DNA of 64,000 nucleotides from Phyllobacterium zundukense (GTDB taxonomy: Bacteria; Pseudomonadota; Alphaproteobacteria; Rhizobiales; Rhizobiaceae), in NCBI RefSeq assembly GCF_025452195.1, contig NZ_CP104969.1, forward strand, positions 142,001-206,000, read 5' to 3'. The first letter of the stretch is position 1. Each line of letters opens with the position of its first letter. The position numbers and the translations under genes were made by a program. Positions 35,969-53,097 of the stretch are shown here, piece by piece. A model generated the notes under the pieces. That model saw only the letters and a program-made list of their open reading frames with translations. It was not told where the DNA came from and did not search any database.

Positions 35969-36597
35969 AACGGTCAGAGGTATTCTTCGCGGCGTCGGCT
36001 GGTCTTCTCCTGTTATGTTCCGGCGGTGCTGCTCTTGCCGCGGCGAACAATGATCCGAGCTGGCCTTGCGTCCAGCGCAAGGTACCGGAACTTTCGATCG
36101 GTCAGGTGTGGAACGGCCCGGACATTCCGGAGGCGGCGAAAAACTGGGATAGCGATCCAAAAATCGATGATCTCGTTAGCGAAGTCGCGGCGCGGCGCAA
36201 CCCGCTCGACGCCGCACAAAAGCAGGTCGTAGAGTTTGCCGGGAGTCTGCCCAAGGAGCAGCTTAACGACAAGATGTTCATGCTGTTCCAGGGTGTATTC
36301 GACACCTTGAACCGCGAGCGTGAGCAGGTGATTTCTGGTATCTCACGCTACGCCGACAAGCAACGCGACATGGCGGCGGATCTGCGCAAGGAAGCCTCGA
36401 CGGTAGACGCGATGCGAGCCAAACCTGATCACGATCCGGAAGAACTGGACAGGTTGAATGAAAGGCTGACCTGGGAAACCCGCATATTCGAGGAGCGGGT
36501 CCAATCGCTGACCTATGTCTGCGAAGTGCCGACGATTATCGAGCAACGCCTGTACGGCCTGTCGAAGACAATCGAGCAAACGATCATCAAACCTTGA
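35965..36597 (+). CDS. Exported hypothetical protein, last gene of the PQQ-ABC operon
   Basis: A 210-residue protein with a signal peptide (to about residue 25), an N-terminal segment with WPCVQRKVPELSIGQVWNGP, and a long helical part (about residues 85-190) with coiled-coil character (EELDRLNERLTWETRIFEERV). Two cysteines (about 34 and 188) could form a disulfide. I do not recognise a named family. The start is TTG at 35965, six bases after gggagg and overlapping the permease stop, which argues for true co-translation. Confidence 0.65.
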   Translation: MKRSEVFFAASAGLLLLCSGGAALAAANNDPSWPCVQRKVPELSIGQVWNGPDIPEAAKNWDSDPKIDDLVSEVAARRNPLDAAQKQVVEFAGSLPKEQLNDKMFMLFQGVFDTLNREREQVISGISRYADKQRDMAADLRKEASTVDAMRAKPDHDPEELDRLNERLTWETRIFEERVQSLTYVCEVPTIIEQRLYGLSKTIEQTIIKP

Positions 36598-36771: not shown

Positions 36772-37905
36772 CTATGCTGAAGTTGGGTCGAGTTCGACGG
36801 ATTTTCCAATCCTTCGATAGGTGAAGGCGTCTGGCGTCGTGTCGGCCGTCTTCGTGCTGATGGCCTCGTTGATGAGCGCGCCCATACGGGCATGCAGCGG
36901 GGATTTGATGCAGGCCGGGTCCGTAGCAGCCGCGTCGCCGGCGATTGCCATGGCCTGACAGCGGCAACCACCCCAATCGATCTCCTGACGCTCGCAGCTG
37001 CGGCATGGCTCCTGCATCCAGCTTGTTCCGCGAAACGCATTGAATGCGGACGATTCATGCCAGATTCGGCTGAGGCTCCAGTCGCCGAAACGCTCGAAAT
37101 GCAAAGACTTGATCGTGCCGGCCGCATGGCATGGAAGCACGGTACCATCGGGCGCTACCATGAAGGCATCGCGAGCCCAGCCGCCCATGCAGGGCTTCGG
37201 ATAGATGGCGAAATAATCAGGCGTGACGAAGTCTATCGTCATGATACCGCGCAGACGCTCCTGCGCTTCTTCGACAATCTGCACCTGCCGCTCGACCGCT
37301 TCGCGCTCCGGCATGAGCGCCTTGCGATTGAGCAGAGCCCAGCCCGCATATTGCACATTGGCGATTTCGAGCCGCTCGGCGCCAAGGGAGAGCGCGAGTT
37401 CGATGAAATCCGGTACTTCTTCCATGTTGTGGCGATGGATCGGCGCATTGATCGTCAAGGGCAGGCCCGCCGCGCGAACGCGGCGTGCCGTTTCGAGCTT
37501 CTTTTCATGGGCGCCGCGCGAATTGCCGATCTTCTCGGTGGTGGCAGCAAACGCACCCTGGAAACTCAGCTGGATATGATCAAGCCCGGCCTCGGCCCAG
37601 GCTTCAATTCGGCCATCAGCGATGCCAACGCCCGCCGTGATGAGATTGGTATAGACGCCCCGCCGCGCGAGACAGGCAATAAGCTCCCCGAGATCGGTAC
37701 GAAGCGTCGGTTCGCCGCCGGAAAGATGTACCTGCAGAACGCCGAGGTCCGCCGCCTGTTCGAACAGCGAAAGCCAGCCTGCCGTATCCATTTCCCGGTT
37801 GGCTTTCAACAGCTCGACCGGATTGGAGCAATAGGCACACTGCAACGGGCAGCGATGCGTCAATTCCGCCAGCATGCCGATCGGGGGTAGGACAGGTTCG
37901 TTCAT
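36772..37905 (-). CDS. pqqE: PqqA peptide cyclase (radical SAM)
   Basis: A 377-residue radical SAM enzyme with the cluster motif RCPLQCAYC (Cys19, 23, 26) and the C-terminal SPASM-type cysteines (CMGG near 245, then CRSCERQEIDWGGCRCQA near 305-322). It links the Glu and Tyr of PqqA, the first step of PQQ synthesis, with PqqD presenting the peptide. The start at 37905 is set by the ATGA overlap with pqqD. It is the last gene of the xox-pqq run. Confidence 0.94.
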   Translation of the reverse strand: MNEPVLPPIGMLAELTHRCPLQCAYCSNPVELLKANREMDTAGWLSLFEQAADLGVLQVHLSGGEPTLRTDLGELIACLARRGVYTNLITAGVGIADGRIEAWAEAGLDHIQLSFQGAFAATTEKIGNSRGAHEKKLETARRVRAAGLPLTINAPIHRHNMEEVPDFIELALSLGAERLEIANVQYAGWALLNRKALMPEREAVERQVQIVEEAQERLRGIMTIDFVTPDYFAIYPKPCMGGWARDAFMVAPDGTVLPCHAAGTIKSLHFERFGDWSLSRIWHESSAFNAFRGTSWMQEPCRSCERQEIDWGGCRCQAMAIAGDAAATDPACIKSPLHARMGALINEAISTKTADTTPDAFTYRRIGKSVELDPTSA

Positions 37906-38201
37906 AACGTCACCAGAAACTTGTCGGACCATTCCTGCAGAAAGCCGGTTACATCCGGCGCGATCTCGGCTTCATCCGCTGCATACTGGTCCGCCAGCAA
38001 TGCAATCATTTGCGCGACGCTGTGGCGCCCGTCACACAGCCTCAAAATATCGAGGCTCACTTCATTCGGCCAGAACACCCGTTCCGGCGACAGCAGCGCC
38101 CATGCCTCGCGCACCGTATCATACTGCAGCCGTGCATGAGACTTTAATATGGGTCGCGATTGCATGGAAACAACCGCACGGACACGGCTTGCCCCAGTCA
38201 T
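37902..38201 (-). CDS. pqqD: PQQ synthesis peptide chaperone
   Basis: A 99-residue protein of the PqqD winged-helix family: YDTVREAWALLSPERVFWPNE near residues 27-47, ILRLCDGRHSVAQMIALLADQY near 51-73. It binds PqqA and hands it to PqqE. It overlaps pqqE and pqqC by four bases each. The true start may be internal, since the first about 12 residues are not conserved in the family. Confidence 0.92.
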   Translation of the reverse strand: MTGASRVRAVVSMQSRPILKSHARLQYDTVREAWALLSPERVFWPNEVSLDILRLCDGRHSVAQMIALLADQYAADEAEIAPDVTGFLQEWSDKFLVTL

Positions 38202-38953
38202 GCCGCCTCCGGATCGAAAGCGCCGGGCGGGATATTGCCCTTTTCACCGTAAGCATGAGCTAACGCATCGAGCATTGCCCAGAGGATATCGCATTTGAAA
38301 ATGAGCGCGTCGATGACCGCCTGCTGTTTTTCCGGCGTATCGGCATGTTTCATCACATAGGCCAAGGCGAAATCGGAATCGCGTGACGCCTGTGTCGGCC
38401 GCTTGTCGAAATAGGCCAGGATATCCGGCGTCACATAATCATATTTCGCCAGCATGGCCGGAACGCGCTCGCCGATGATGACAGGCGAGAAAAGCTCTGT
38501 CAGAGATGAGGCCACGGCCTCAAGCAGCGTGCGGTTGGTGCAGAAGGAAAGGTAGGCGCCAACGGCAAATCGCGTGCCCGGCAGTGCCAGCTTTTCGCTT
38601 TTGACATCATCTGCATCGAGACCAAGACCCGTAGCAAGCTTCAACCAGCGCGCAATGCCACCGCTCCAGCCGTCGTCGCCATCGTGATCTTCGATCCGCT
38701 TGCGCCATTCGGCACGAAATTCGGGATCTTCGGCCCGGGCAATGATCATCGCGTCCTTGCGCGGAATGACCGACTGATAGCAATAGCGATTGAGCGCCCA
38801 AGCCTGCATCTGCCCCTTGGTCAGGGCCCCGCTGACCATCTGGTGATGATAGGGGTGGCGATTGTGATAGCGCTCCGCACCGACCTCGCGCAGAACTCTT
38901 TCCAGATCAGCTGGCGACAATCCGTCTCGCGCCGCATTGCCGAATTTGCTCAA
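38198..38953 (-). CDS. pqqC: Pyrroloquinoline-quinone synthase
   Basis: A 251-residue all-helical oxidase with blocks RYHNRHPYHHQMVSGALTKGQ near 29-49 and NRYCYQSVIPRKDA near 56, which include the substrate-binding His and Arg residues of PqqC. It catalyses the last ring closure and oxidation to PQQ with O2. It overlaps pqqB and pqqD by four bases. Confidence 0.95.
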   Translation of the reverse strand: MSKFGNAARDGLSPADLERVLREVGAERYHNRHPYHHQMVSGALTKGQMQAWALNRYCYQSVIPRKDAMIIARAEDPEFRAEWRKRIEDHDGDDGWSGGIARWLKLATGLGLDADDVKSEKLALPGTRFAVGAYLSFCTNRTLLEAVASSLTELFSPVIIGERVPAMLAKYDYVTPDILAYFDKRPTQASRDSDFALAYVMKHADTPEKQQAVIDALIFKCDILWAMLDALAHAYGEKGNIPPGAFDPEAA

Positions 38954-39888
38954 AGCCTGACCTCCATGCCATCAAATGCTATTTTCCAGCCCGCGGCGAC
39001 AACGGCCGCATGTTCAGGCGATGCCGCGTCGAGAATGGGGTTGGTATTGTTGATGTGCACATAGATCCGCTTCCTGATGCCAAGATCCGCCAGGGCCGCC
39101 AGCGAACCACCCTCGCCCGAAATGTACATATGACCCATGCGCGCGCCGGTTTTTGTGCCCACTCCTGCCGCGATCATCTCGTCATCGGTATAGACGGTGC
39201 CATCGAAGAACAGGCATTCGGCAGCTGACAGCCGCTCTCGAAGGGGGGCGTCGATACCGGCGCAGCCCGGAATGTAAAAGGCCGTCGTCGCACCATCACC
39301 CGATGCGATGCGCAGGCCGATCGTATCGCCTGTCATCGTGCCAAACCCCTCACTCGCCTTGGATTTATCTTCGAGGAACAGCGCAACCTTACCCGGCACA
39401 GCAAAAGTTTCGACGGTTATGCCGACGCGATTTCCTTGGGCATCAAGAATATCCGTGCTCTCGCCCAAGGGGAGTTCGCGCCTTTCGACGATTTCCCGAT
39501 CAAGGACGTTGAAAATCGAATTGGATTCGAGCACGTCGAGAACCCGCCCTGTCGCATAAATCGCGAAGGGTTCGCGCTCACGCAGGCTGAGCAGCCCGGC
39601 GATATGATCGACATCGGCATTGGTCAGGATGACGGCGCGGATGGGCGTCGAGCGCAACGGTCCATCGGCCCGCGGCTGCAATTCAGGTGTGACGGCAATC
39701 TGCTGGCGAATGTCAGGCGACGCGTTGAACAAAACCCAATCACGCCCGTTCGCGCTGGCGGCGAGACTCGATTGGGTTCTCGCACGGAAATTGGCTTCGC
39801 CATTCCGTGCTCCACGGCTCAATCGATAATTGCAATTCCACTGGGGAAACCCGCCTCCTGCTGCGGAGCCGATGACTGTCAATCGCAT
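38950..39888 (-). CDS. pqqB: PQQ synthesis metallo-hydroxylase/lactamase-fold protein
   Basis: A 312-residue metallo-beta-lactamase-fold protein. It begins LTVIGSAAGGGFPQWNC and has the metal motif LTNADVDHIAGLL near residues 90-102, as in PqqB, which hydroxylates the peptide-derived intermediate. The start at 39888 is where homology begins. A 100-bp gap with a hairpin separates it from pqqA, as is usual for differential expression. Confidence 0.93.
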   Translation of the reverse strand: MRLTVIGSAAGGGFPQWNCNYRLSRGARNGEANFRARTQSSLAASANGRDWVLFNASPDIRQQIAVTPELQPRADGPLRSTPIRAVILTNADVDHIAGLLSLREREPFAIYATGRVLDVLESNSIFNVLDREIVERRELPLGESTDILDAQGNRVGITVETFAVPGKVALFLEDKSKASEGFGTMTGDTIGLRIASGDGATTAFYIPGCAGIDAPLRERLSAAECLFFDGTVYTDDEMIAAGVGTKTGARMGHMYISGEGGSLAALADLGIRKRIYVHINNTNPILDAASPEHAAVVAAGWKIAFDGMEVRL

Positions 39889-39947
39889 GCGGGCACAAAC
39901 CCTCTCCTTCCGGAAACCAGGTTCCGGCCGAACAACCACAAGGTGCC

Positions 39948-39987: not shown

Positions 39988-40083
39988 TTACTTTTTTGCC
40001 TTGAGTTCTGCAGGCAGGTAACGTGAAAGTTCCATACCGGCAGCAACCTGACACATGGTAGGTTTTGTCCATGTTTTCTTCAT
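39988..40083 (-). CDS. pqqA: PQQ precursor peptide PqqA
   Basis: A 31-residue peptide, start complementary to 40081-40083 after a perfect aaggagg. It reads MKKTWTKPTMCQVAAGMELS and then RYLPAELKAKK. The Glu18-x-x-x-Tyr22 pair is the conserved PQQ backbone source, cross-linked by PqqE. It lies between the rhodanese gene and pqqB in the same direction. Confidence 0.95.
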   Translation of the reverse strand: MKKTWTKPTMCQVAAGMELSRYLPAELKAKK

Positions 40084-40158: not shown

Positions 40159-40722
40159 TTAAAAGGGCTCATTTTTCTGTGTTGGCTGCTTCGCCGCGGT
40201 CCAGCCATCCGTGCCGAGAGGATACCAAAGTACCGATTTGTATCCCCACTCGACAGCTCGTTTGGCTGCATTCCATGACATCCAGCAGTTCGCCATACAG
40301 TAAAAAAGCACCTTTCGTTTCGTGTCGTCGCCCAACCGAGATTTCAGCCCCTTGCGAAAATAGGCTTCCGTCTCCTTGTTTATGATTCCGTAGCCCACAT
40401 TTGCGAGCCATATGCTCCCGGGAATATCTTCCCGGACTTTTTCCCTCCAGATGGTCCCGGCCGGAAGATTTGCCGGCTTGGGATCACGAGGAAGGACATC
40501 GACGAACACCGCCGATTTGTCTTTCCACAGGGCGATGGTTTCCTCGGTGGTGACCACCTTTGCCCCCTTCAAAGTGGCGGGAACCGGCGCCCTGTAATTT
40601 TCGGTCCTGTAGTCCGTCGGCTCCGGCGCCGTTTCACCCGCGAAAGCCGTCGTCACCAGTACGGTAAGTAAAACGGCCAACGCGCAGGAACAGTTCCGCA
40701 CCGGTTTTTCACCTCGCTTCAT
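40159..40722 (-). CDS. PQQ-linked exported rhodanese-like protein with CxxxCW motif
   Basis: A 187-residue exported protein: signal peptide to about residue 28, then a rhodanese-like domain with the active loop FYCMANCWMSWNAAKRA near residues 140-156. The Cys-x3-Cys-Trp motif replaces the usual rhodanese loop and marks a family tied to PQQ-dependent catabolism. It may carry persulfide or handle disulfides in the periplasm; the substrate is unknown. It lies in the xox-pqq run, 12 bases after xoxJ. Confidence 0.83.
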   Translation of the reverse strand: MKRGEKPVRNCSCALAVLLTVLVTTAFAGETAPEPTDYRTENYRAPVPATLKGAKVVTTEETIALWKDKSAVFVDVLPRDPKPANLPAGTIWREKVREDIPGSIWLANVGYGIINKETEAYFRKGLKSRLGDDTKRKVLFYCMANCWMSWNAAKRAVEWGYKSVLWYPLGTDGWTAAKQPTQKNEPF

Positions 40723-40734
40723 CCACCCACCACG

Positions 40735-41598
40735 CTACTGCGTGATCAGCTTGTTATTCTCGTCGACCAACGGCACCTGGAAATTGAGCAGGATCTTGTT
40801 GATCTCGCTCTGGTTCTCCCGGATCACCTTGTTCAATGTGCGCTTCCACTCCTGATCGGATGGGCGCACACCCATCGTGATCCGGTATGCCATATGCCCG
40901 GTCTTTTCCTTGACCAGGGGAATCACCGTCAGGTTGGGATCGATCTCCTTGGCATAATAACCTGCCATCGGCCCCCAAAGGATCGCAACGTCGATCACAC
41001 CACTTTCGAGTTCCTTGATCATGACCTCCGCCATCGAAGGCGCGAGCCTTGTATCGACCATCAGGGGATAGGGATGAACGTTTTTCATATAGCCGACCTT
41101 GGCGAGATTGGCAGACGGCGGGGTTCCGGCAACAACGCCTATTTTCTTGTTCGCCAATTTGCTGTCCTCGATTGTATCCACACCATCGAGGCCGCTGTCC
41201 TTCTTGTAGATCATCACATAGGTCGAGCGATAATAGGCATTGGTATTCTGGACGAGTTCGTCGCCCTGCGCGTATCCCATGATGATGTCGCAGCGATTGG
41301 CCCGCAGCGTGCTGCGGACGAAGCCTGTCGCCATCGGGAACCACGTATATGCCACCGATTTACGCCCGGTCTTCGCAGCCACGAGCTCAGCCAGCTTGTT
41401 TTCGAACCCCTTGCCGCTCTCATCGGAGAACGGCATGTTGGATGGATCCGAGCAAACACGCAGGACGTCAGGATCGACCAGTTCGCCCGAGGCTCCAAGA
41501 CCCGCACCTTGGGCCAGGACCCCGGACGGCACGGCAAGTGCCGCCGCCATGACGCCGCCGGCAATCCATCTCGTCAGGGGTATCGCATATCGCATCAT
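40735..41598 (-). CDS. xoxJ: XoxJ: periplasmic binding protein-like partner of XoxF
   Basis: A 287-residue exported protein of the extracellular solute-binding family 3 fold: signal peptide ending VLAQG, then DVLRVCSDPSNMPFSDESGKG, typical of XoxJ/MxaJ. These proteins have a large cleft but are thought to activate or mature the dehydrogenase rather than carry solutes. The ATG directly follows the xoxG stop codon (an ATG three bases on is an alternative), so the genes are coupled. Confidence 0.9.
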   Translation of the reverse strand: MMRYAIPLTRWIAGGVMAAALAVPSGVLAQGAGLGASGELVDPDVLRVCSDPSNMPFSDESGKGFENKLAELVAAKTGRKSVAYTWFPMATGFVRSTLRANRCDIIMGYAQGDELVQNTNAYYRSTYVMIYKKDSGLDGVDTIEDSKLANKKIGVVAGTPPSANLAKVGYMKNVHPYPLMVDTRLAPSMAEVMIKELESGVIDVAILWGPMAGYYAKEIDPNLTVIPLVKEKTGHMAYRITMGVRPSDQEWKRTLNKVIRENQSEINKILLNFQVPLVDENNKLITQ

Positions 41599-42123
41599 TT
41601 ACCCACCCATACAGGAGGCTTCCGCCTCTTTGGCTGCAGGCGGTTTGTCCGCATGCTTTGCAGGACGCCCGCGAGGCAGATCGCCGACGGCCCGGGCACG
41701 CAGATAAACGTAGAGGTCGTCCATATAGCAGTAGACGTTCTTGTTGTTGCCAAAAGCCGGCATGACGTTTTCCTTGCCAGCGCTGAGGTTTTTGCGCCCT
41801 TCGGCAACTATCGACAGGAACTCCGCATAGGGCATCGTCTTCAGCGAGTTTGCCAAAGCCGGCGCGAAGGAAGAACCTGCACCATCCGCGCCGTGGCAGA
41901 CAAAACAATCTGAATTGAACCGGCGAAACCCGCTATAGGTGTACCAGTCGACCGTACCATCCTCGTCAATCTTGAAGGTGGGATTCCCGTCCTTATCGGC
42001 ATATTTGCCGTTTTCGTCGGAGGCAACAGCTGCTGCGGCTTTGTCATCGGCGTAAGCGCTGCCGGGGCCCGCTACAAGCGCAAGACCGGCAGTGACGGCA
42101 AGCAATGTCATTCGAATAGGCAT
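41599..42123 (-). CDS. xoxG: XoxG: cytochrome c electron acceptor of XoxF
   Basis: A 174-residue exported c-type cytochrome: signal peptide ending GSAYA, one haem motif CFVCH at about residues 77-81, and axial-ligand region NVMPAFGNN with Met near 120. The tail is Pro/Lys/Ala-rich and has a Cys near the end. It takes electrons from lanthanide methanol dehydrogenase in the periplasm. Start at 42123 follows gcgagg. A hairpin separates it from xoxF. Confidence 0.92.
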   Translation of the reverse strand: MPIRMTLLAVTAGLALVAGPGSAYADDKAAAAVASDENGKYADKDGNPTFKIDEDGTVDWYTYSGFRRFNSDCFVCHGADGAGSSFAPALANSLKTMPYAEFLSIVAEGRKNLSAGKENVMPAFGNNKNVYCYMDDLYVYLRARAVGDLPRGRPAKHADKPPAAKEAEASCMGG

Positions 42124-42217
42124 ACAAGAACCTCGCATTCAACTCGTCAATTCGGCTCGGCACCTTGCGGCGCCGCCTGGACGGTTGTTTGATCATCGAT
42201 ATGGGTCAGGTGACACG

Positions 42218-42248
42218 GGGGGCCCGGCCTGGTTGAAACCGGGCTCCC
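42218..42248 (-). terminator. Intercistronic hairpin between xoxF and xoxG
   Basis: A stem of about 10 bp (42218-42227 with 42239-42248, one wobble) with an 11-base loop, 50 bases after the xoxF stop. It lacks a U-run. It may stabilise the xoxF message or reduce read-through into xoxGJ, matching the much higher need for XoxF. Confidence 0.5.
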
Positions 42249-42298
42249 ATTATTCAAAGCCTGCATCCGCGGGCTCACTGTGTCAGCTTCGTTCCCGA

Positions 42299-44128
42299 TT
42301 ACTCAGGAACAGCGAAAACGGTCAACTGACCGCCCAAGGCCGTGTAGTCGGAGAGCGCAGCATAACCGCCCACCGCACCGAGGCCTTCATTCGGCTTCGT
42401 CAAGCCGGCGGCAAGACCGATACCAGCCCATCCGCCAACACCGGACAGAACGGCAACATATTGTTTGCCCTTATGTTCGTATGTGGTGACGTTACCGATG
42501 ATGCCGGACGGAGTCTTGAACTTGTAAAGTTCCTTGCCGTCCTTATCGACCGCCTTCAGATAGCCTTCAAGCGTTCCGTAGAAGACGACATCGCCATCGG
42601 TGGCCAAAGCGCCTGACCAGACCGAGAACTGCTCGGGTTTGGACCAGACGATCTCACCCTTTGCCGCATCCCATGCGATGAAGTTACCCATGCCGCCATG
42701 GCTGTTCGGAGCTGGATACATGGACAGTGTCGCGCCGACGTAAGGCTGACCGGCGGTGTAACTGACCTTATAGGGCTCGTAGTCCATGCAGACGTGGTTT
42801 GTTGGAACATAGAAGAGCTTGGTCTTTGGCGAATAAGCGGCCGGCTGCTGATCTTTCGTACCAAGAGCTGCCGGGCAGATACCCGTGGTGTTGACGTCTT
42901 CGCCTTGTACCTGCGTCGAGTATTTGTCCACGACCTTCGGGCGGCCGTAGGTCTTGCTATCCTTGTCCATGTCGACTTCCGTCGCCCAGTTCACTGCCGG
43001 ATCGTATTTCTTTGCGACCAGAAGTTCACCGGTTGCACGATCCATCGTATAGGCAAAGCCGTTGCGATCGAAGTGCACGAGGACATCACGCGGCTTGCCA
43101 TCGACCTCGATGCCATCCGCAAGGATCATTTCGTTGATACCGTCATAATCCCACTCGTCATGCGGGGTCATCTGGTAGAGCCATTTCGCCATGCCTGTAT
43201 CGGCATCGCGGGCCATGATGGTCATGGACCACTTGTTGTCACCGGGACGCTGACTTGGGTTCCAGGTGGATGGATTGCCGGTACCGTAGTAGATCAGGTT
43301 CAGCTTGGGATCGTACGAATACCAACCCCACGTCGTTCCACCACCGGTTTTCCACTGGTCACCTTCCCAGGTGTTGGTGCCCGAGTCTTTTCCGACTGGC
43401 TTGCCGAGCTGGGTGGTCTTTTCCGGATCGATCAAGGTTTCCTTGTCGGAACCCATCGACCAGGCACGCCAGGCCTGCTTGCCATCCTTCATGTCATAAG
43501 CCGTCAACGCACCGCGAACACCAAATTCACCACCGGAAATACCGACGATGACCTTGTCTTTCACGACCATTGGCGCGGATGTTCCGGATTCGCCCTTGCT
43601 GCCATCTGACGCCTCGGCGTTTTTCACGGACCAGACCGGTTTACCTGTCTTTGCATCGAGGGCAACGAGCGTTGTATCGGCCTGATAGAGGAATATCTTG
43701 CCGTCGCCATAAGCTACGCCGCGATTAACGGTGTCGCAGCACATGATAGGAATGACGTTTGCGTCCTGCTTGGGTTCATACTTCCAGAGGATTTTGCCAT
43801 CATTGTTCAGGTCAAGCGCAAAGACGGTGTTCGGAAAAGGCGCATGAACATACATCACATCGCCGACGATGAGCGGGCCTCCTTCATGGCCGCGCAGCAC
43901 ACCGGTCGAAAACGTCCAGGCGACCTGAAGGTTTTTGACATTGTCCGCAGTGATTTTATTGAGTTTTGAGTATCGCGTATTAGCGTAATCGCCGGTCTGG
44001 ATAGCCCAGTTCTTCGAATCAGAAATCAGACCCTGAAGATCGTCATTGGCCAGAGCACCCCCCGCCAATGAGAACGTCATGGCCGTTGTAGCCAATGCAA
44101 TTCCAATTAAATTTCTGTGTACACGCAT
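42299..44128 (-). CDS. xoxF: Lanthanide-dependent PQQ methanol dehydrogenase
   Basis: A 609-residue eight-bladed quinoprotein with signal peptide (ending GGALA). Key residues are visible: the vicinal disulfide Cys130-Cys131 over PQQ, metal ligands Glu201 (ISGGEFG) and Asn285 ([10 protein letters not shown]), the catalytic Asp327 and the extra Asp329 (WDYDG). Asp329 marks lanthanide enzymes; calcium MxaF has Ala there. It oxidises methanol to formaldehyde (or further) in the periplasm, passing electrons to XoxG. It heads the long run to pqqE. No mxaF is in the window. Confidence 0.96.
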
Positions 44129-44395
44129 TTTGAGTCCTCCCTAAGTTCACATTTATGAACCATCGGACGAAGCCGTTTTTCAGTGCGGGTTCGCTCCATT
44201 AGCTCACGCAAATGGGGAAGTATTTCCGGCAGCGTGTCACGACAAAGCCAGGCGCGCAGAGGGCACCGTTACTGCCCACCTCGCTTGGCCTACGAAGACT
44301 GTCACCACTCCCTTGACGGCAACGTCCTTGAAGCCGGAAACAAGTTGACGATAGGAGAAAGAATTGCATTAGGCAAGCGGGATTATCAAATTATA

Positions 44396-44432
44396 TTTGC
44401 TGCGTTGCAGTATACTTTGCTGCATCGCAGTA
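44396..44432. promoter_or_regulatory. Two direct repeats of a CTGC-N3-GCAG dyad, 20-bp period, in the xoxF promoter region
   Basis: tttgctgcgttgcagta (44396-44412) and tttgctgcatcgcagta (44416-44432) differ at only two bases and start exactly 20 bp apart, two helical turns. Each is itself a dyad (ctgc-gcag). They lie 268 bp upstream of xoxF and 147 bp upstream of the divergent secreted-protein gene, a good place for a regulator controlling both. Upstream, ttgcattaggcaa is a weaker relative. The factor is unknown. Confidence 0.6.
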
Positions 44433-44578
44433 AGTATCCGATTTAGTTATTATATTCTGGCAGCCCGTCCTGTCACATAATTTGATACTTATGGAACGGA
44501 TTCTGTTTGCAGTTTGTTATTGTTGTTTGCTATCTATCTGGAAAATGTATATTTACCGTCCGCAAATGCGAGGATGCC

Positions 44579-44929
44579 ATGATCACATCGAAAATCACGC
44601 AAATTACCGTGTTAGCAGGTGCAGCAATTGTCCTTTCCTTGCCGGCTAATGCTGCGTCAGATTACCCCACTTCGACCCTCGCCGAATATGTCTACGGCTG
44701 CATGAAAGCCAATGGTGAGAACCGCGATGTACTTCAGCGCTGTTCGTGCTCGATCGACGTGATCGCGTCCGTCGTGACCTACCCTCACTACGAAGCCGCC
44801 GAGACCTACAAACAGATGGGTTTGCTGTCCGGAGAGAATGGTGTCCTGTTTCGTGAAAGTGCTCCCGCGAAAGCTTCGATCACCGAATTGAAGCGGGCTC
44901 AGGCGGAAGCCGACGTCCGCTGCTTCTGA
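44579..44929 (+). CDS. Small exported Cys-rich protein divergent from xoxF
   Basis: A 116-residue protein: signal peptide (residues 1 to about 23, ending LPANA), then a compact helical domain with four cysteines: YGCMKANGENRDVLQRCSCSIDV region (Cys at about 41, 54 and 56) and the final CF. No family name is certain, but I recall similar small proteins beside xoxF in other alphaproteobacteria; this needs a search. Start at 44579 follows gagg. It shares its promoter region with xoxF, so an accessory role in methanol oxidation is plausible. Confidence 0.7.
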   Translation: MITSKITQITVLAGAAIVLSLPANAASDYPTSTLAEYVYGCMKANGENRDVLQRCSCSIDVIASVVTYPHYEAAETYKQMGLLSGENGVLFRESAPAKASITELKRAQAEADVRCF

Positions 44930-45068
44930 AGACCTCGATAATTCATCTTGATGGCCATCTAGGGCAGCTTTCTCGACTTCCGGTGCTCACGAACGAGAAA
45001 GTTCGCTGCGCTCCGGCTCCTCGAAAACCACCCTAGATGGCCATCAAGATGAATTCTGGAAGGTCTTC
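44928..45068. repeat. Long inverted repeat, copy 2 of a dispersed element
   Basis: Perfect 25-bp arms (44940-44964 and 45031-45055, core cttgatggccatctaggg), extended by outer 8-bp arms gaagacct and aggtcttc. The core resembles the element at 16605-16750. It overlaps the stop codon of the secreted-protein gene and ends 18 bases before the stop of the convergent SoxYZ-like gene, so it likely terminates both. Confidence 0.72.
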
Positions 45069-45085
45069 ATGGCCGTGTTTTTCGA

Positions 45086-45940
45086 TCACAGGCTGGAGGA
45101 TTCCAGCGGCCACTCGTCCTGGAATTTCTTGCCTTCGGTATCGGCAGCCTCGACCTTCACATCCTCGCCGGGTTTCGCATCGAATTCGAAGCGGAAATTC
45201 GGGTCTTCCGAAATTGAAATCCCGCCTTCCATCGACATGATAAGCCTGTCACCCTGCGACACGGTCAGGCCCTGGATGAAGTGCGCGGGGATATAATAGC
45301 GCGTGACCTGATCCATCTGCAGCCCGGAATTGTTGGGGTGGCGAATCATCAACTGCATTTCAGTTGCGCGGGTCATCGGCTCGTTGCCAGGCGTCTTGGC
45401 TGTAAAGACGCGCAGCTTCATCTTGCCGAGCGAAGCCAGGGCTTCATCCTGATTTTTCATCGCCGGTGCGGAGCAGCCGCCGGATGCCTTGACGAAAGTC
45501 TGCGTCATATGAAGTTTTCCATCTTCGGTTTCGGCAATGGCGCGAACATAGGAATAGGCATTGACCCGAAGGCGCGTCGCCAGATGGGTGACGCCCGCAT
45601 CCTTGCCGAACTGGAACACTGCAGCGACGGGTGACGGATTTTCATCGACGATGAGGGTGACAGCCTTGATCCGGCCAGTTGCCGCATCGGTTTTGAAATG
45701 CAGATCGATGGGTACGATTGCCGCATCCTCGGCGCGTTTCGGTGCATCGATCGTGATGATGCCGCCAGCATCTCCGATCGGCTTTTGGCCGAAGACATCG
45801 CCCTTCAAACCATCCCAGGTTTTGGTATCCGGAACGCTCGCGCTTTGCGCGTTGGCGGCAAACGGTATCGCCGCTCCAACGAGCGCGAGAAGGACGAGCG
45901 CAACCATCCGGCTACCCAGTCGTATCGGCTTTATCGTCAT
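45086..45940 (-). CDS. Quinoprotein-associated SoxYZ-like carrier fusion
   Basis: A 284-residue exported protein: signal peptide ending FAANA, a SoxY-like domain (about residues 40-165) and a SoxZ-like domain (about 170-284, with MQLMIRHPNNSGLQMDQVT). Its only cysteine is Cys156 in KASGGCSAP, matching the carrier cysteine of SoxY. SoxYZ carries sulfur intermediates on that Cys in thiosulfate oxidation; this fusion is found with quinoprotein dehydrogenases, and its cargo is unknown. Start at 45940 follows ggtggagg. Confidence 0.85.
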   Translation of the reverse strand: MTIKPIRLGSRMVALVLLALVGAAIPFAANAQSASVPDTKTWDGLKGDVFGQKPIGDAGGIITIDAPKRAEDAAIVPIDLHFKTDAATGRIKAVTLIVDENPSPVAAVFQFGKDAGVTHLATRLRVNAYSYVRAIAETEDGKLHMTQTFVKASGGCSAPAMKNQDEALASLGKMKLRVFTAKTPGNEPMTRATEMQLMIRHPNNSGLQMDQVTRYYIPAHFIQGLTVSQGDRLIMSMEGGISISEDPNFRFEFDAKPGEDVKVEAADTEGKKFQDEWPLESSSL

Positions 45941-46020
45941 ATTCTGCCTCCACCAAGAAGATTGGCGGTGCCCGGCCATGCATGAGTATACCACCTCGGC
46001 TGGCGTAGTTGCAAACGGGT

Positions 46021-46980
46021 TCATTCCCATTCGAGTTCGGCAAAGGCGGCCGTGGCGTTGCGCAGATTGTAGTCGTCAAAGAGACGCCAGTTGTTCCGCT
46101 CACTTTCCGCCGCTGTCTTGACCGCCTCCGCCATTGGCACGCCATCGGCGATGGCCTTGCGAATGTCGCGGGCGAGCGCATCGAAGTAGCGCTGCTCCTG
46201 TTCAAGCGCCTGCGGCCAGGCTGACGGAACGGGACCATGTCCCGGTACCGCAAATTTTGCCTTGATCCCTTTGAGTTCCCCCAGCTGTGCGATCCAGCCA
46301 AGCAACGATCCATCCATCGTCGGAAGATGCTCGATGAAACACAGATCGCCGGTGAAGAAGGTACCGGACTGTTCGTCGAAAACTGTAAGATCGTTGTCCG
46401 TATGAGCTGGCTTCCAGGCCTTCAAAGTAAGCTTCCGATTACCGAGATCGAGCTGCTCCTCGCCGGTCACAAGCTGCGTGGGCGGTATGATCTTTATGTC
46501 GGCCATCAGCGCACTGCCCATGGCGTCGCGATAGCTCTGCAAATAATAGTCGCCGCGGCTGGCAAGCGCGCGCGGCAGATTGTGATGCCCGACAACAATC
46601 GCTCCTGTATCTCCGAACGCGGCGTTTCCGAAAATATGATCGGGGTGCATATGCGTGTTGATCAGGTAGCGGATCGGCTTATCCGTCCTGGCGCGAATGG
46701 CGGCGACGAGTTCCCTGCCCTCGGCAACACTGCCGCCGCTGTCGATCACGGCGACCGCTTCGTCGCCTATGATGAAGCTGACATTGCAGATCTCGCCCTC
46801 GTTGTTCGCGGTCATCATCTCGGGCCTGCCCGCAAAGGCGAAGACCCCGCCGGCAATCTCCTTGACAGGCAAAGGCTCGATCGGGCTCGACTGCGCCCGC
46901 GCCAGACGGACATGCGAAATGCCGCAACAGGCGAAAAAGACACCAGTTTTAAGAACGCTGCGCCGGGTCGGCTGACTCAT
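46021..46980 (-). CDS. Quinoprotein relay system zinc metallohydrolase
   Basis: A 319-residue metallo-beta-lactamase-fold protein with a Tat-like leader (TRRSVLKTGVFFACCG). The metal motif HMHPDH is at residues 110-115, with GHHNLP, PAHTDNDLTVFD and a final PGHGPV His. It belongs to the relay-system hydrolases found with SoxYZ-like carriers and PQQ enzymes. By analogy with glyoxalase II and persulfide dioxygenase it may release a group from the carrier cysteine. It overlaps the ABC ATPase gene by four bases. Confidence 0.82.
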   Translation of the reverse strand: MSQPTRRSVLKTGVFFACCGISHVRLARAQSSPIEPLPVKEIAGGVFAFAGRPEMMTANNEGEICNVSFIIGDEAVAVIDSGGSVAEGRELVAAIRARTDKPIRYLINTHMHPDHIFGNAAFGDTGAIVVGHHNLPRALASRGDYYLQSYRDAMGSALMADIKIIPPTQLVTGEEQLDLGNRKLTLKAWKPAHTDNDLTVFDEQSGTFFTGDLCFIEHLPTMDGSLLGWIAQLGELKGIKAKFAVPGHGPVPSAWPQALEQEQRYFDALARDIRKAIADGVPMAEAVKTAAESERNNWRLFDDYNLRNATAAFAELEWE

Positions 46981-47735
46981 GGCGCGTTCCTCACCCCGGC
47001 GAATTTTTCATTGAACGAACGCAACAGATCCGCCTTCACCTGCTCATTGCGATAGTTGCGTGGCAGACGGATATCGAACGTACCGATCACTTGGGCGGGA
47101 CGCTCGGAAAGCACGATGATACGGTCGGCGAGCATGATTGCCTCCTGCAGATTATGCGTCACCATCAACGCGATCGTCGGGCGCTCGGACCACACGGAGA
47201 GCAGCATATGGCGTAGCTGCTGCGCTGTGGACTCATCCAGCGAGACAAATGGTTCATCAAGCAAAAATATATCCGGCTCGATCGCCAGTGCGCGCGCTAT
47301 CGCCGCGCGGCGTGCCAGCCCCAGCGACAGCTCTGCCGGATAGAAATTGCGCATCTTCGACAGGCCGAGCGTGCTGAACAAGCCATCGAGATTGGTCTCG
47401 CGCTTGGGCTGCGGCATGGCGAGCCGCACATTCTGCTCAACTGTACGCCAGGGCAGAAGCATCGGCTCCTGAAACACCGCCCCGATACGCGCGTCCGCCA
47501 ATCCGGGCAACTGGATCGACCCGCGATAGTCGCTGTCGAGACCAAGCAAAATGCGTAAAGTAGTGGTCTTCCCGCAACCCGACGGTCCAAGGATACAGGC
47601 GAACTCGTTCTGCTCGACCTCGAAGCGCAGATCGCGCAGGACCGCAATCGTTCCACCGTTGGACGAGCGGAACGTTTTCTCTTCTATGTTGACCTTAAGC
47701 CGCGCTGCGACGCCAGCGAGTTGATGTGTGTTCAA
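46977..47735 (-). CDS. ABC transporter ATP-binding protein, NitT/TauT type
   Basis: A 252-residue ATPase: Walker A LGPSGCGKTTTLRILLG near residue 48, Q-loop VFQEPMLLPWRTVEQN, signature-like region LSLGLARRAAIARALAIEP (the usual LSGG reads LSLG), Walker B IFLLDEPFVSLD. Family members energise import of nitrate, sulfonates or pyrimidine precursors. The start is uncertain; TTG at 47735 gives a full N-terminal strand and overlaps the permease end by 41 bases. Confidence 0.85.
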   Translation of the reverse strand: MNTHQLAGVAARLKVNIEEKTFRSSNGGTIAVLRDLRFEVEQNEFACILGPSGCGKTTTLRILLGLDSDYRGSIQLPGLADARIGAVFQEPMLLPWRTVEQNVRLAMPQPKRETNLDGLFSTLGLSKMRNFYPAELSLGLARRAAIARALAIEPDIFLLDEPFVSLDESTAQQLRHMLLSVWSERPTIALMVTHNLQEAIMLADRIIVLSERPAQVIGTFDIRLPRNYRNEQVKADLLRSFNEKFAGVRNAP

Positions 47736-48513
47736 GCGGTTGCACCACGACGAGTTCGATGAAGAGCATGACGGCAACAAAGGCCAGGGTATAGGCCAGT
47801 ATCGCCGCGACATCGAAGAGTTGAAAAAACAGGTTGATCTGAAAACCGACACCATTGGAGCGGCCGAGCAACTCGACCACGAGCACAATTTTCCAGATCA
47901 GCGAAATACCGGAACGCGATGCGGCGGCTATGTAGGGCTGCAGCTGCGGTATCAGTATATGCCGCAATCGATCCAATGCATTGAAGCGGTACACCTGCGC
48001 CATTTCCGCGTAGCGCGGATCGAGCGCCCTCGTTCCTTCGCGCAAGGTGACGACCACATTCGGGATCTTGTTGAGCGCTACAGCGCCGATCGCTGCGGCT
48101 TCATTGAGCCCGAACCAGATATAGGCGAGGACGATGATGACCAGCGCGGGTATATTGAGGAAGAGAATGACCCACGGATTGAAGAACTCGTCTGCGCGCC
48201 GGTAACTGCCAAGCAGGACACCGATCACCGAACCTATCAGCATCGCCAGCACAAAAGAGGCAGCGACGCGGCACAAGGTGATGCCGAGATTGTAGGGCAG
48301 ATCGCCGCTCGCCGTTTCGCTGAGGAATGTTTGCAGAACCAGCAAAGGCGCCGGAAACGAGCGGCTGGGCCAGATCGTCGCTCCGGCATGCCATGCAACG
48401 ACCAATACGCCAAACGACAGCAACACCATCAGCGGCGAGCTCCACTGCCACTTCGAAGCCGCGGTGGAAACAAGCTTGCCCGTTTGCTGCTGTTCGCGCG
48501 ATGCAAGGGCCAA
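47695..48513 (-). CDS. ABC transporter permease, NitT/TauT type
   Basis: A 272-residue membrane protein with about six helices and the binding-protein-dependent transport loop (EGTRALDPRYAEMAQVYRFNALDRLRHI region near 155-182). It pairs with the ATPase and binding protein around it. Start is a TTG immediately after the stop of the binding-protein gene, with ggaggg upstream. Confidence 0.85.
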   Translation of the reverse strand: MALASREQQQTGKLVSTAASKWQWSSPLMVLLSFGVLVVAWHAGATIWPSRSFPAPLLVLQTFLSETASGDLPYNLGITLCRVAASFVLAMLIGSVIGVLLGSYRRADEFFNPWVILFLNIPALVIIVLAYIWFGLNEAAAIGAVALNKIPNVVVTLREGTRALDPRYAEMAQVYRFNALDRLRHILIPQLQPYIAAASRSGISLIWKIVLVVELLGRSNGVGFQINLFFQLFDVAAILAYTLAFVAVMLFIELVVVQPLEHTSTRWRRSAA

Positions 48514-49497
48514 TTAGTCTGCCCTCCAGAAGGTGCCCGGCGCCAATGTTTTTCCGGGGCCGACGAGCCGTTCGCCGCCAAGATCGGCGAGGATAGCATA
48601 GAGCTTGGTCGCGTCGGCCTGTTCGTCCTCGATTGGCCGGTCGGGAATACCCTCGCGATAGCGGTCACGCAGCGCATCCAGCTCATGGCCTTCGGCTTTC
48701 ACCACCGGCGCCAGACGTTGCCATTCCTCATCGGAACTGCCGAGCAGGGCCTTAGCATCTCTGCTGGCCTTGACGAACCCTGCAATTGCGTCCGGATGGG
48801 CGTCGGCCCATTTGTCGTGAAAGATGTAGCCGATGGCCGAAACGTCACCTGTAGCGCCGAGCGCCTTTGCAGCATCGCTGGTACTGACGAGGCGGTGAAA
48901 CCCATTGGCTTCAAGCCTTGCGCAAAAATTCCAGAAGTTCAGCACGGCATCCAGTTCACCTTGCTGCGCCTTTTCGGCAAGCAGCGGCGGCGTGCCGTAG
49001 ACAATTTCGCTTTGCGCCGGCAGATCGAGTGAGAACTGGTGCTTGGCATAGCCCTGCATAAGCAGCCAGCTCTTGTCCAGCGGCCCACCTGCCACACCGA
49101 TCTTCTTGCCCTTCAGATCCGCCAGACTTTTGATCGGCGAGCCATCAGGAACCATCAAGGCGCCGACCGAACTCGAATAGGGCACGAAGGTCAGGTCTTC
49201 GCCCGACGCGCGCTGCCGCGACACCCAGAGCCAGTCCGTGACGATGATATCAACATCCCCGGCCATCATGGCGACATTGGTTGCATCTTCACTCGCGAAG
49301 AAGCGGACATCGACATTCACGCCATATTTTTCGTCGAGCTTATGTTGCTTGATCGTATCCAGCTCCCAATTGACAGTCCCGAATTTCAGGACGCCAACAC
49401 GAACGGTCTCAGCAGCCAGGCCGGCCTGCGTGTCAAACCCAAGGGCGAGCACAAACAAGATACAGAAGCGGAAAAGGCGTTGATATAGTCCTGTCAC
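48514..49497 (-). CDS. ABC transporter substrate-binding protein, NitT/TauT type
   Basis: A 327-residue exported protein: signal peptide ending QAGLAAE, then VRVGVLKFGTVNWELDTIKQH and a family core (FFASEDATNVAMMAGDVDIIVTDWLWV) like aliphatic sulfonate or nitrate binding proteins. The ligand is unknown; linkage to the SoxYZ-like carrier suggests a sulfur compound or a PQQ-system solute. The start is GTG at 49497 after ggagg; an in-frame ATG upstream lacks a site. Confidence 0.83.
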   Translation of the reverse strand: MTGLYQRLFRFCILFVLALGFDTQAGLAAETVRVGVLKFGTVNWELDTIKQHKLDEKYGVNVDVRFFASEDATNVAMMAGDVDIIVTDWLWVSRQRASGEDLTFVPYSSSVGALMVPDGSPIKSLADLKGKKIGVAGGPLDKSWLLMQGYAKHQFSLDLPAQSEIVYGTPPLLAEKAQQGELDAVLNFWNFCARLEANGFHRLVSTSDAAKALGATGDVSAIGYIFHDKWADAHPDAIAGFVKASRDAKALLGSSDEEWQRLAPVVKAEGHELDALRDRYREGIPDRPIEDEQADATKLYAILADLGGERLVGPGKTLAPGTFWRAD

Positions 49498-49523
49498 GAT
49501 GTCCTCCCAGACAAGTCGCTTTT

Positions 49524-49736
49524 CTAGAGCTCTATATCCTTTGATGGATAGTCGCATTTCCAACGAATGACCTTAACGTTGGGATGGTCGCCGGACCATT
49601 TTGCAATTTCCGTCGGCGCGAGGAGCATGCAATTGTTCAGACCGCCGCCCCTGTTTTCAAAATGCAGGCGCTCCTCCCGGCAACTCGCCGGGTTGGATAT
49701 GAGACAGATGGTCAAAACGAGGTCAACAACATCCAT
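49524..49736 (-). CDS. Conserved small protein with four cysteines
   Basis: A 70-residue protein starting MDVVDLVLTICLISNPASC and ending RWKCDYPSKDIEL, with Cys at about 11, 19, 36 and 61 and a motif IAKWSGDHPN. The pattern (hydrophobic start, NPASC, C-terminal IRWKC) is one I know from short hypothetical proteins of alphaproteobacteria; no function is established. Start ATG follows gggaggtg. It is the first gene upstream of the NitT/TauT-type operon and may be co-transcribed. Confidence 0.65.
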   Translation of the reverse strand: MDVVDLVLTICLISNPASCREERLHFENRGGGLNNCMLLAPTEIAKWSGDHPNVKVIRWKCDYPSKDIEL

Positions 49737-50491: not shown

Positions 50492-51049
50492 TCAGACAAT
50501 CTCACGCCATTTGATCGAACAGCCGACCGATGCGATCTGCTCGCGCGGCCCCTGCCCTGTATTGGCAATTTCCTTCATCGCTTCGAACAGATCGCGGCGG
50601 ATCTCTGGCGCTGCCGCTTCCTTGCGTGATGCGTCGAGGCGTCCCCGATACTGTAGTTCACCCGCGCCATTGAACCCGAAGAAATCAGGCGTGCAGACGG
50701 CCCCGTATGTACGCGCCACGCTCTGATCAGCGTCATGCAGGTAGTGAAACGGAAACGCGTTCTCGCGGGCAAAAACCTTCATGTTTTCAAACAAATCGGC
50801 GGGATAGGCACTTGCGTCATTGGCATTGATGGCGACAAAGCCGATGCCGAGTTCCTCAAGATCCCGGGCGTCGCGGACGATGCGCTGGATAACTGCTTTC
50901 ACATAAGGACAATGGTTGCAGATGAAAGCAACAACCAGCCCCTTGTCGCCTGCCTGCGCCAGAATGGAATGCTGCCGGCCATCGGTACCAATCAGGTTCG
51001 CATCAACGGCCTTCCAGCCAAAATCACAAAGGGGTGGTATCGCCGCCAT
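50492..51049 (-). CDS. Thioredoxin-like AhpC/TSA-family protein at the end of the cbb operon
   Basis: A 185-residue redoxin with the active motif FICNHCPYV (Cys-Asn-His-Cys) at about residues 43-51 and partner segment AVCTPDFFGF near 118. Such proteins are peroxidases or thiol reductases. The gene lies 16 bases after cbbE in the same direction, so it is probably co-transcribed with the Calvin-cycle genes and might tune their thiol state. Start at 51049 follows ggagga. Confidence 0.85.
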   Translation of the reverse strand: MAAIPPLCDFGWKAVDANLIGTDGRQHSILAQAGDKGLVVAFICNHCPYVKAVIQRIVRDARDLEELGIGFVAINANDASAYPADLFENMKVFARENAFPFHYLHDADQSVARTYGAVCTPDFFGFNGAGELQYRGRLDASRKEAAAPEIRRDLFEAMKEIANTGQGPREQIASVGCSIKWREIV

Positions 51050-51065
51050 TGTCTTTCTCCTCCGC

Positions 51066-51755
51066 TCAAGCTGCCGCCCGATGCCTCGCATGATCGGCAG
51101 CATGACGGATTGCAGCGATATTGTCAGCATAGGCCGCCTTGCCGGTGCCCTTGAAGACCGCTGATCCCGCGACAAGCACATTCGCGCCTGCCGCCGCAAC
51201 GAGGGGCGCGGTTTCAGGCGTCACGCCGCCGTCGATTTCAATATGAATCGGGCGGTTGCCGATCAACGCCTTCACACGCCGCACTTTATCCACGACGGAA
51301 GGGATGAACGCCTGCCCGCCGAAACCCGGATTGACTGTCATCAGGAGCACGAGATCAAGCCGGTCCAGCACATATTCGATGACGCTTTCCGGAGTCGAAG
51401 GGTTGAGTGAAACACCCGCCTTCTTGCCGAGACTGCGGATAGCCTGCAGCGAGCGATCGAGATGCGGGCCGGCTTCCGCATGCACGGTGATGTAATCGCA
51501 ACCGGCATCGGCAAAAGCGCCGAGATAGGTATCCGTCGGGGCGATCATGAGATGACAATCGAATATTGCGGACGTCCGGTTGCGGATGGATTTTATGATC
51601 TGCGGCCCGAACGTGATGTTCGGGACGAAATGCCCATCCATCACGTCGAGATGCACCCAGTCGGCACCCGCCGCCATGACGTCTTCGACTTCCTGGCCGA
51701 GCCGGGAAAAATCCGCCGAAAGCACGGACGGCGCGATGAGTACGTTCCTGTTCAT
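51066..51755 (-). CDS. cbbE: Ribulose-phosphate 3-epimerase
   Basis: A 229-residue TIM barrel with [16 protein letters not shown], the metal motif [17 protein letters not shown] near residues 35-51, and [12 protein letters not shown] near 140. It interconverts ribulose- and xylulose-5-phosphate. Located inside the cbb operon, overlapping cbbX by four bases, it serves the Calvin cycle. Confidence 0.94.
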
Positions 51756-52675
51756 GGCGTTTGCTCCTCTCTTGACGATGCGGAAAACACACGGCTGACC
51801 CTGATATCGTCCGCGGTAATCGTTGACAACGCCGCCGCATCTGTCGGCCCGTTGGACGCCTCGAACAGCCGGTTTGCGTGGCGCAGTCTCGCCCTGTCCA
51901 GCGCGTTGCGAATGGAACGGGCATTGGCAAAATGCGGCTGCTGGCGGCGCCGTTCGATATAGTCGGCCATGATGGCGCGGCCTTCCGCATCGAACGTATA
52001 ATTCTGCTTCGACAGCATCGTCTCGGAAATACTCAGCAACTCGTCAGAGCTATAGTCCGGGAAATCGATGTGATGGGCGATGCGCGACCGAAAACCCGGA
52101 TTGCTCTCGAAGAATTTATCCATGCGATCGGCATAGCCCGCGAGAATCACCACGAGATCGTCCCGCTGGTTTTCCATCACCTGCAACAATATCTCGATCG
52201 CTTCCTGTCCGTAGTCGCGTTCGTTCTCCTGGCGGTGCAGATAATAGGCCTCGTCAATGAACAAGACGCCGCCCATGGCTTTCTTCAGGATCTCCTTGGT
52301 CTTCGGGGCGGTATGCCCGATATATTGCCCGACCAGATCGTCACGGGTGACAGAGACGAGATGGCCCTTGCGGATATAGCCGAGGCGATGCAACAGGTCC
52401 GCCATGCGCATTGCAACGGTGGTCTTGCCGGTGCCAGGATTGCCGCTGAAACTCATGTGCAACGTCGGCGTTTCATGCGCGAGACCCATGCGCCGGCGTG
52501 CCCGCTCGACCAGCAGCAATGCTGCGGTCTCCTTGATCCGCTGCTTGACCGGCTTCAGGCCGATCAAGTCGCGGTCGAGTTCGTCCAGCACCTCCTTGAC
52601 GCCGGATTCGACATATTCAGCGCGCAGGTCGATGGCAGACGGAACCTCGAGCTGGGTGATGCTGGCGTCAGCCAT
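51752..52675 (-). CDS. cbbX: Red-type RuBisCO activase
   Basis: A 307-residue AAA+ ATPase: Walker [10 protein letters not shown] near residue 80, Walker [13 protein letters not shown] near 137, and the pore loop/sensor segments typical of CbbX. It removes inhibitory sugar phosphates from red-type RuBisCO by pulling on the large-subunit tail, and is itself activated by RuBP. The start is within an 8-base overlap with the cbbS end. Confidence 0.95.
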
Positions 52676-53087
52676 AGCGTTGCCCCGCTGGCTTGTCCGT
52701 TGCGTAGGACCTCGTCGTGTAACGAACCACGCGGCCCTCGCCTTCCTGGCGGGCAAGGTGGAAGCCTGGCTCTTCCGGCGGGCGGTTGACGAGGAACGAC
52801 AGCTTGACCGATTCCCAGCCGTGGGTGTTGTCGAAGGCGACAAGGCGAATGTAGTAGTCGCCATAGACCTTGCGGCATTCCTTCAGCTCCATCATGAGGG
52901 CGGCTGCATCCGGGTTGTCGAACATCGGATGTCCCCACATGTCCCAGTAGGTGTTGCGCGGGTGCGGGTCATCGGTAAATTCGAGACTGACAGCCCAGCC
53001 ATTGTCGATGCAATATTGCACCTGCCTGGCGATCTGCTCGTCGGTCAGGTCAGGCAGGAACGAGAATGCTCCTTGAGTGATACGCAT
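52668..53087 (-). CDS. cbbS: RuBisCO small subunit, form IC
   Basis: A 139-residue small subunit beginning [19 protein letters not shown] with the C-terminal extension of red-type enzymes ([21 protein letters not shown]). It caps the L8S8 enzyme. Start at 53087 follows ggaga. It is 10 bases after cbbL. Confidence 0.96.
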
Positions 53088-53097
53088 GTCGTTTCTC

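Follow-up and report, generated by a model that had tools for sequence, protein, structure and literature searches.

The window analyzed here, a 64,000-nucleotide stretch of the genome of Phyllobacterium zundukense (contig NZ_CP104969.1, positions 142,001 to 206,000), contains the gene of a methanol dehydrogenase, xoxF, accompanied by a trio of genes for a SoxYZ-like fused carrier, a metallo-beta-lactamase-fold hydrolase and an exported rhodanese-fold protein. An earlier inspection of the letters alone (hereafter the sequence-only reading) had singled out this set, and the genes that it named were found in the list of open reading frames (ORFs) where it had placed them, on the minus strand (Table 1). 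In the direction of transcription, a PqqT-like binding protein, a permease and an ATPase (49563-46977) are followed by the metallohydrolase, the SoxYZ-like fusion and xoxF, and beyond xoxF by the genes of XoxG, XoxJ and the CxxxCW rhodanese-fold protein (40722-40159), and then by pqqA to pqqE. The overlap of the ATP-binding cassette (ABC) ATPase ORF with the hydrolase ORF, also remarked on earlier, is of 4 nt (46977-46980). The annotation of Phyllobacterium sp. T1293 shows an identical gene order, with the dehydrogenase labelled XoxF5, quinoprotein names for the carrier and the hydrolase, and the small four-cysteine protein entered as "hypothetical protein". The dehydrogenase of the window has the motif WDYDG (WDxD, with the second aspartate), is 92% identical to a RefSeq-named XoxF5, and lies within the XoxF clade of a tree, a clade of 25 rows (Shimodaira-Hasegawa-like approximate likelihood ratio test, SH-aLRT, 99); by these sequence features it is a XoxF5 lanthanide methanol dehydrogenase.

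The carrier, when read from M31 of its longest ORF, has a signal-like N-terminus and one cysteine only, Cys156, within SGGCSAP. It belongs to the TIGR04557 family, as it exceeds the cut-off, contains Pfam SoxY and SoxZ domains fused to each other, keeps the cysteine of the arm, and has a quinoprotein, XoxF, adjacent to it. Residue conservation was followed in relatives from 100 fetched loci, 80 of which were picked for their resemblance to the carrier; all 98 relatives compared retain the carrier cysteine. The rhodanese-fold protein displays C142-x3-C146-W147, with both cysteines kept in 75 of 75 relatives, and is a member of TIGR03865 (PQQ_CXXCW), having passed the cut-off with the two cysteines present. 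In the hydrolase, which carries the motif THMHPDH, the seven expected metal ligands are kept in 98-100% of 92 relatives, and both score and ligands assign it to TIGR04559 (quinoprotein relay zinc metallohydrolase 2), a name from which both the zinc and the hydrolytic activity are taken. The active sites built for cysteine chemistry that had been read from the sequence (Cys156, CxxxCW and HMHPDH) were thus confirmed residue by residue and are conserved in relatives.

The carrier shares its SoxY and SoxZ domains and the GGC arm with SoxYZ of thiosulfate oxidation, and it matches the profile of SoxY (4uwq_B) with 82 bits. It differs from SoxYZ, however, in being fused and in having an internal cysteine (GGCSAP) instead of a terminal GGCGG, and it falls below the cut-offs of both true SoxY (72 vs 125) and true SoxZ (66 vs 76); its assignment as a true SoxYZ of the Sox pathway was thus rejected. 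The structure model of the hydrolase (mean predicted local distance difference test, pLDDT, 92.7) has as its nearest solved folds with a reaction in their names other hydrolases, namely chlorothalonil dehalogenase, beta-lactamases and alkylsulfatases. Glyoxalase II and persulfide dioxygenase, to which this protein had been likened, were both absent among the 50 closest solved folds listed and on that listing were set aside as its nearest fold, though it may yet share their function. What it has in common with these two enzymes is HxHxDH together with further His, Asp and His ligands; it also weakly matches a hydroxyacylglutathione hydrolase (2xf4, E 7e-4), but scores 24 bits with the GloB model, whose cut-off is 201.

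The distribution of the three families was surveyed across 199 evenly sampled Pseudomonadota genomes. A true fusion was taken as a match over the cut-off with no internal stop; out of 39 genomes over the carrier cut-off, 28 were kept and 11 dropped (G034, G010, G093, G109, G089, G065, G045, G061, G073, G101 and G077), because in the latter a stop interrupts the match, as is expected when soxY and soxZ are separate genes. A pyrroloquinoline quinone (PQQ) alcohol dehydrogenase was present in 50 of the 199 genomes, including all 28 with the carrier. The rhodanese family (TIGR03865) occurred in 26 of the 28 carrier genomes and in none of the 171 others, and TIGR04559 was over its cut-off in 19 of the 28 and, again, in 0/171; the remaining nine carrier genomes each have a hydrolase match below the cut-off that lies, by coordinates, near the fusion. 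Lanthanide-type (WDxD) enzymes were found in 27 of the 28 carrier genomes as compared with 10 of the 22 quinoprotein genomes lacking the fusion (p=5e-5; the p values given here ignore kinship among genomes, and the 28 carrier genomes represent 15 genera and 8 families). Dehydrogenase typing covered 101 of 110 matches (100 fetched plus that of the window), and 10/22 is possibly an undercount, six of the nine untyped matches being from genomes without the module (G125, G146, G171 and G128). The exception among carrier genomes, G054, has the module alongside two calcium-type enzymes only.

A second sample comprised 232 genomes of the class Gammaproteobacteria, of which 23 have a XoxF-like enzyme, taken at 56% identity or more, and 209 have none. 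Here 35 genomes were over the carrier cut-off, 10 were dropped owing to a stop inside the match, and 25 were kept, one of these (G206) with a partial open match; the fusion was present in 19 of the 23 genomes with a XoxF-like enzyme and in six of the 209 others. The trio follows quinoprotein alcohol dehydrogenases, mostly of the lanthanide type, and is neither specific to methanol nor indispensable for XoxF. The co-occurrence of these families with xoxF, proposed earlier as a check, is therefore not random, and the view of the three families as one set was borne out, in that the module tracks quinoprotein alcohol dehydrogenases and retains its cysteines and metal ligands. An exclusive link to methanol was not sustained, as 10 of the 28 carrier genomes have no XoxF-clade enzyme, which fits a module that deals with aldehydes in general. 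In one genome (G168, locus L224), carrier, hydrolase and rhodanese genes are adjacent and the sole dehydrogenase match, an enzyme with WDYDG, shares 43% identity with XoxF.

The trio has been noticed before. Passages of a 2026 review (PMC12997753) describe it in P. putida (PP_2677, PP_2678 and PP_2666) and M. extorquens (META1p1703-1705) as a conserved but unexplained companion of lanthanide and PQQ alcohol dehydrogenases; the roles they consider are to form disulfides, to stabilise the cofactor or to shield PQQ from sulfur species. The set in the window consists of the same families (TIGR04557, TIGR04558/TIGR04559 and TIGR03865) above their curated cut-offs and in the company of a PQQ alcohol dehydrogenase; it differs from the known trio in being placed with XoxF5, in its type 2 hydrolase, in a PqqT-like transporter gene that touches the hydrolase gene, and in a four-cysteine gene. 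As to novelty, the suggestion that the joint reaction had not been described stood, since neither such a reaction nor an aldehyde on a SoxYZ-like thiol was met among the matches listed in a search of open-licence full texts, whereas the set itself had already been remarked upon in that review. The architecture of the module and its association with quinoproteins are very probably as described here.

The sequence-only reading had included the transporter, as of the NitT/TauT type, in a cycle with the trio. Its binding protein instead resembles PqqT, matching PDB entries 9B1U and 9B1V with 252 bits over 296 residues, in comparison to 30 bits for the sulfonate-binding protein 2x26, and on this ground a sulfur importer was rejected. 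These two entries are PqqT with PQQ and Gd, according to the portion of PMC12828617 consulted, which also names K142 of PqqT; the binding protein shares with PqqT an LDK[NS]W motif whose lysine, possibly the counterpart of K142, is retained by 98% of 54 relatives. PqqT binds PQQ with an affinity of 50 nM and has a role in keeping and recapturing PQQ (PMC12124388, in part). A PqqT relative occurs in 55 of 91 XoxF-type loci, many of which end at contig ends. The transporter is most likely, judging by this relationship, a PQQ importer, and the closeness of its binding protein to PqqT puts it outside the relay; the assignment takes away a misleading sulfur clue.

Between xoxF and the fusion, on the plus strand, lies a gene that had not been listed earlier. 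It encodes the four-cysteine protein, of 116 residues with a signal-like N-terminus, in which C41, C55, C57 and C115 are invariant among 19 aligned sequences, as are other residues that include Y37, G46, D60, Y71, G85, R92 and Q108. No Pfam or NCBIfam match was obtained up to E=1, and the structure model, which consists of helices throughout and is well defined from roughly residue 31 onward, gave no convincing fold match. There are at least 7999 relatives; the 120 that were listed are named "hypothetical protein" or bear a depolymerase name, and have no Pfam domain.

The four-cysteine gene follows XoxF closely. It was present in 19 genomes (10 genera) of the first sample, which are exactly the 19 XoxF-clade genomes, and in none of the 180 others; it is missing from all ten carrier genomes that lack XoxF. 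In the second sample it occurred in 22 of the 23 genomes with a XoxF-like enzyme (16 families) and in three of the 209 others; the XoxF5 tree places nine of these 22, the other 13 being recognized by identity alone. The sole miss, G400, is outside the XoxF5 clade of the tree, with the nine others inside. The three extras (G294, G333 and G395; loci L262-L265 and L275-L277) have the four-cysteine protein together with the carrier, and the dehydrogenases found in them are at most 49% identical to XoxF; each has one WDxD enzyme, and G294 also a WDYAG enzyme. Among 21 second-sample genomes compared, the gene and xoxF share a contig in 18, and in 13 it is upstream of xoxF on the same strand within 5 kb, ten of these within 1 kb. 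Among 17 first-sample genomes compared, 11 have both genes within 25 kb, two pairs are 335 and 817 kb apart, and four are on different contigs; neighbourhood alone thus does not explain the co-occurrence.

This distribution makes it quite probable that XoxF5 has a dedicated four-cysteine partner. Genome G070, which belongs to both samples, has XoxF and the four-cysteine gene without the carrier. Since the protein accompanies XoxF even in the absence of the carrier, it would serve XoxF itself, most likely in folding, disulfide or metal handling; such direct service is inferred from the distribution. The family was not met as a XoxF partner among the matches listed in the open-licence literature search, and offers a concrete unannotated gene bearing on XoxF maturation. 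In an alignment of 10 sequences, a second small family (49527-49736, minus strand) of 70 residues shows four invariant cysteines (C11, C19, C36 and C61) and two invariant tryptophans; it has no Pfam or NCBIfam match. Within the 50 quinoprotein genomes it was found in 17, all of them XoxF genomes and often with several copies; it is absent from G155 and G070, and a match in G160 inside the hydrolase open frame is doubtful.

It is proposed that the window holds the known quinoprotein-associated thiol-carrier module, here attached to XoxF5 beside a PQQ importer and a four-cysteine XoxF partner, and working as an aldehyde relay, a reading to which a probability of about 40% is given. The SoxYZ-like fusion would be a covalent carrier through Cys156 on its GGC arm, as its family and the invariance of the cysteine suggest. 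Aldehyde from the quinoprotein would be captured by this arm as a hemithioacetal, and the quinoprotein could oxidise that to a thioester; the exported hydrolase, with its predicted fold and conserved ligands, would then cleave the thioester, freeing acid and thiol, and the exported CxxxCW protein might remove sulfur or a disulfide, thus keeping the carrier thiol usable. The transporter would recover PQQ and take no part in the cycle, with the four-cysteine protein attending to XoxF itself. In the Sox system the plan is likewise that of a carrier, a dehydrogenase and a hydrolase. An aldehyde adduct freed by hydrolysis is weakly favoured over sulfur scavenging or enzyme maturation, on two grounds: the module follows several kinds of aldehyde-forming quinoproteins and not sulfur pathways, and its layout is that of Sox with a different dehydrogenase. 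Protection from sulfur is nearly as likely.

Several points weigh against the aldehyde relay. Both the cargo on Cys156 and the hydrolase reaction are hypothetical, and that an aldehyde is this cargo is a tentative proposal. The relay leaves the rhodanese-fold protein without a necessary role, and both this protein and the carrier come from families that otherwise deal with sulfur. SoxB is more common in carrier genomes (10/28) than in other quinoprotein genomes (2/22; p=0.045). The carrier is missing from four of the 23 second-sample genomes with a XoxF-like enzyme, and is thus not required for XoxF as such. With short-chain alcohols and no rare earths, the transposon phenotypes of the trio were minimal (PMC12997753, passages on the trio). 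The full scheme, in which aldehyde is handed to a protein thiol, oxidised to a thioester on the carrier and released as acid by a zinc hydrolase, while the maturation or thiol state of XoxF5 depends on the four-cysteine partner, is improbable as a whole; if true, it would give the periplasm an analogue of glutathione-dependent formaldehyde oxidation that is bound to a protein and arranged on the Sox pattern.

The carrier and the rhodanese-fold protein might rather capture periplasmic sulfite, thiosulfate or sulfane sulfur, with the hydrolase releasing it, e.g., from Cys-S-sulfonate, so that sulfur nucleophiles are kept from attacking the PQQ of the dehydrogenase, an alternative named in the same passages of PMC12997753. 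The sulfur kinship of the two families and the excess of SoxB speak for such a guard, but SoxB was not found at E 1e-80 in the genome of the window nor in 18 of the 28 carrier genomes, and 22 of the 50 quinoprotein genomes do without the carrier. A link to YeeE-like sulfur transporters was examined because in H. denitrificans pmpAB lies beside the Sox(YZ) fusion; pmpAB expression was unaffected by thiosulfate there (PMC11582611, in part), and no PF04143 transporter occurs within 10 kb of the carrier in 50 genomes, the nearest being next to the sox genes of G160, some 18 kb from the carrier. A general link of this kind was discarded, and a sulfur guard is considered rather unlikely.

Maturation, the first hypothesis of PMC12997753 in the part consulted, holds that the trio acts on lanthanide quinoproteins and their partners, either by forming or mending disulfide bonds or by making the cofactor more stable. 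It would account for the lanthanide-type bias (27/28 vs 10/22), for the CxxxC of the rhodanese-fold protein and for further conserved cysteines in XoxG (C137 and C176) and XoxJ (C49 and C103). However, the adjacent cysteine pair is present in every typed dehydrogenase of the 22 module-free quinoprotein genomes (six matches being untyped), G054 retains the module with calcium-type enzymes only, and a zinc-type hydrolase would have no clear role in disulfide formation, which makes this explanation unlikely. A thiosulfate-oxidising Sox system for energy, for which the SoxY and SoxZ domains of the carrier might argue, was rejected as extremely improbable, given the scores of the carrier under both cut-offs and a genome in which no SoxB was found at E 1e-80.

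These results bear on XoxF maturation and on the fate of the aldehyde that XoxF produces, and the distribution narrows the purpose of the carrier module to quinoprotein alcohol dehydrogenases, mostly lanthanide-type, and away from methanol alone or growth on thiosulfate.

Table 1. Features of the xoxF locus, in window positions
Feature	Position	Strand	Support
pqqB, pqqC, pqqD, pqqE	36772..39939	-	ORFs; gene order as annotated in Phyllobacterium
pqqA precursor peptide	39988..40083	-	reading frame; position matches annotated pqqA in Phyllobacterium
Exported rhodanese-fold protein, CxxxCW (TIGR03865)	40159..40722	-	218 bits, cut-off 128
XoxJ-type periplasmic binding protein (TIGR03871)	40735..41598	-	294 bits, cut-off 212
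XoxG-type cytochrome c (TIGR03874)	41599..42138	-	229 bits, cut-off 162
XoxF5 lanthanide methanol dehydrogenase (TIGR03075)	42299..44128	-	758 bits, cut-off 480
Unnamed exported four-cysteine protein, XoxF-associated	44579..44929	+	19-sequence alignment, distribution
SoxYZ-like fused carrier, Cys156 on GGC arm (TIGR04557)	45086..45940 (longest ORF to 46030)	-	289 bits, cut-off 140
Metallo-beta-lactamase-fold hydrolase, twin-arginine-like N-terminus (TIGR04559)	46021..46980	-	413 bits, cut-off 280
ABC ATPase of PqqT-like transporter (longest ORF)	46977..47888	-	PF00005
ABC permease of PqqT-like transporter	47695..48513	-	PF00528
PqqT-like periplasmic PQQ-binding protein (longest ORF; binding predicted)	48514..49563	-	252 bits to PDB 9B1U/9B1V

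The true start of the ABC ATPase is probably internal to its longest ORF, the syntenic Phyllobacterium gene being of 759 nt. The peptide placed before pqqB is presumably PqqA, its motif having been recognised.

Other genes of the window adjoin the cluster on both sides. A pedA1A2BC-like set (31468-35968, plus strand) matches TIGR03863, TIGR03866, TIGR03864 and TIGR03861, each above its own cut-off. After the pedC-like gene, an exported protein of 210 residues (35965-36597, plus strand) has conserved DWPC and CEVP stretches and no convincing match in Pfam or NCBIfam; its relatives were found in 13 of 44 loci and in 53 of 91 XoxF-type loci. Genes resembling those of pterin and methanofuran biosynthesis (27588-31339, minus strand) match the TIGR00284, TIGR02700, MfnE and formylfuran phosphate synthase models, all below cut-off, along with a FolB domain above its cut-off, a set that fits tetrahydromethanopterin-linked C1 metabolism. 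On the other side (50492-59648), a thioredoxin-like AhpC/TSA protein with CNHC and Calvin-cycle genes adjoin the cluster; rpe, cbbX and RuBisCO were assigned by gene order shared with annotated Phyllobacterium, and the presence of Calvin-cycle genes beside the cluster suggests autotrophic methanol use.

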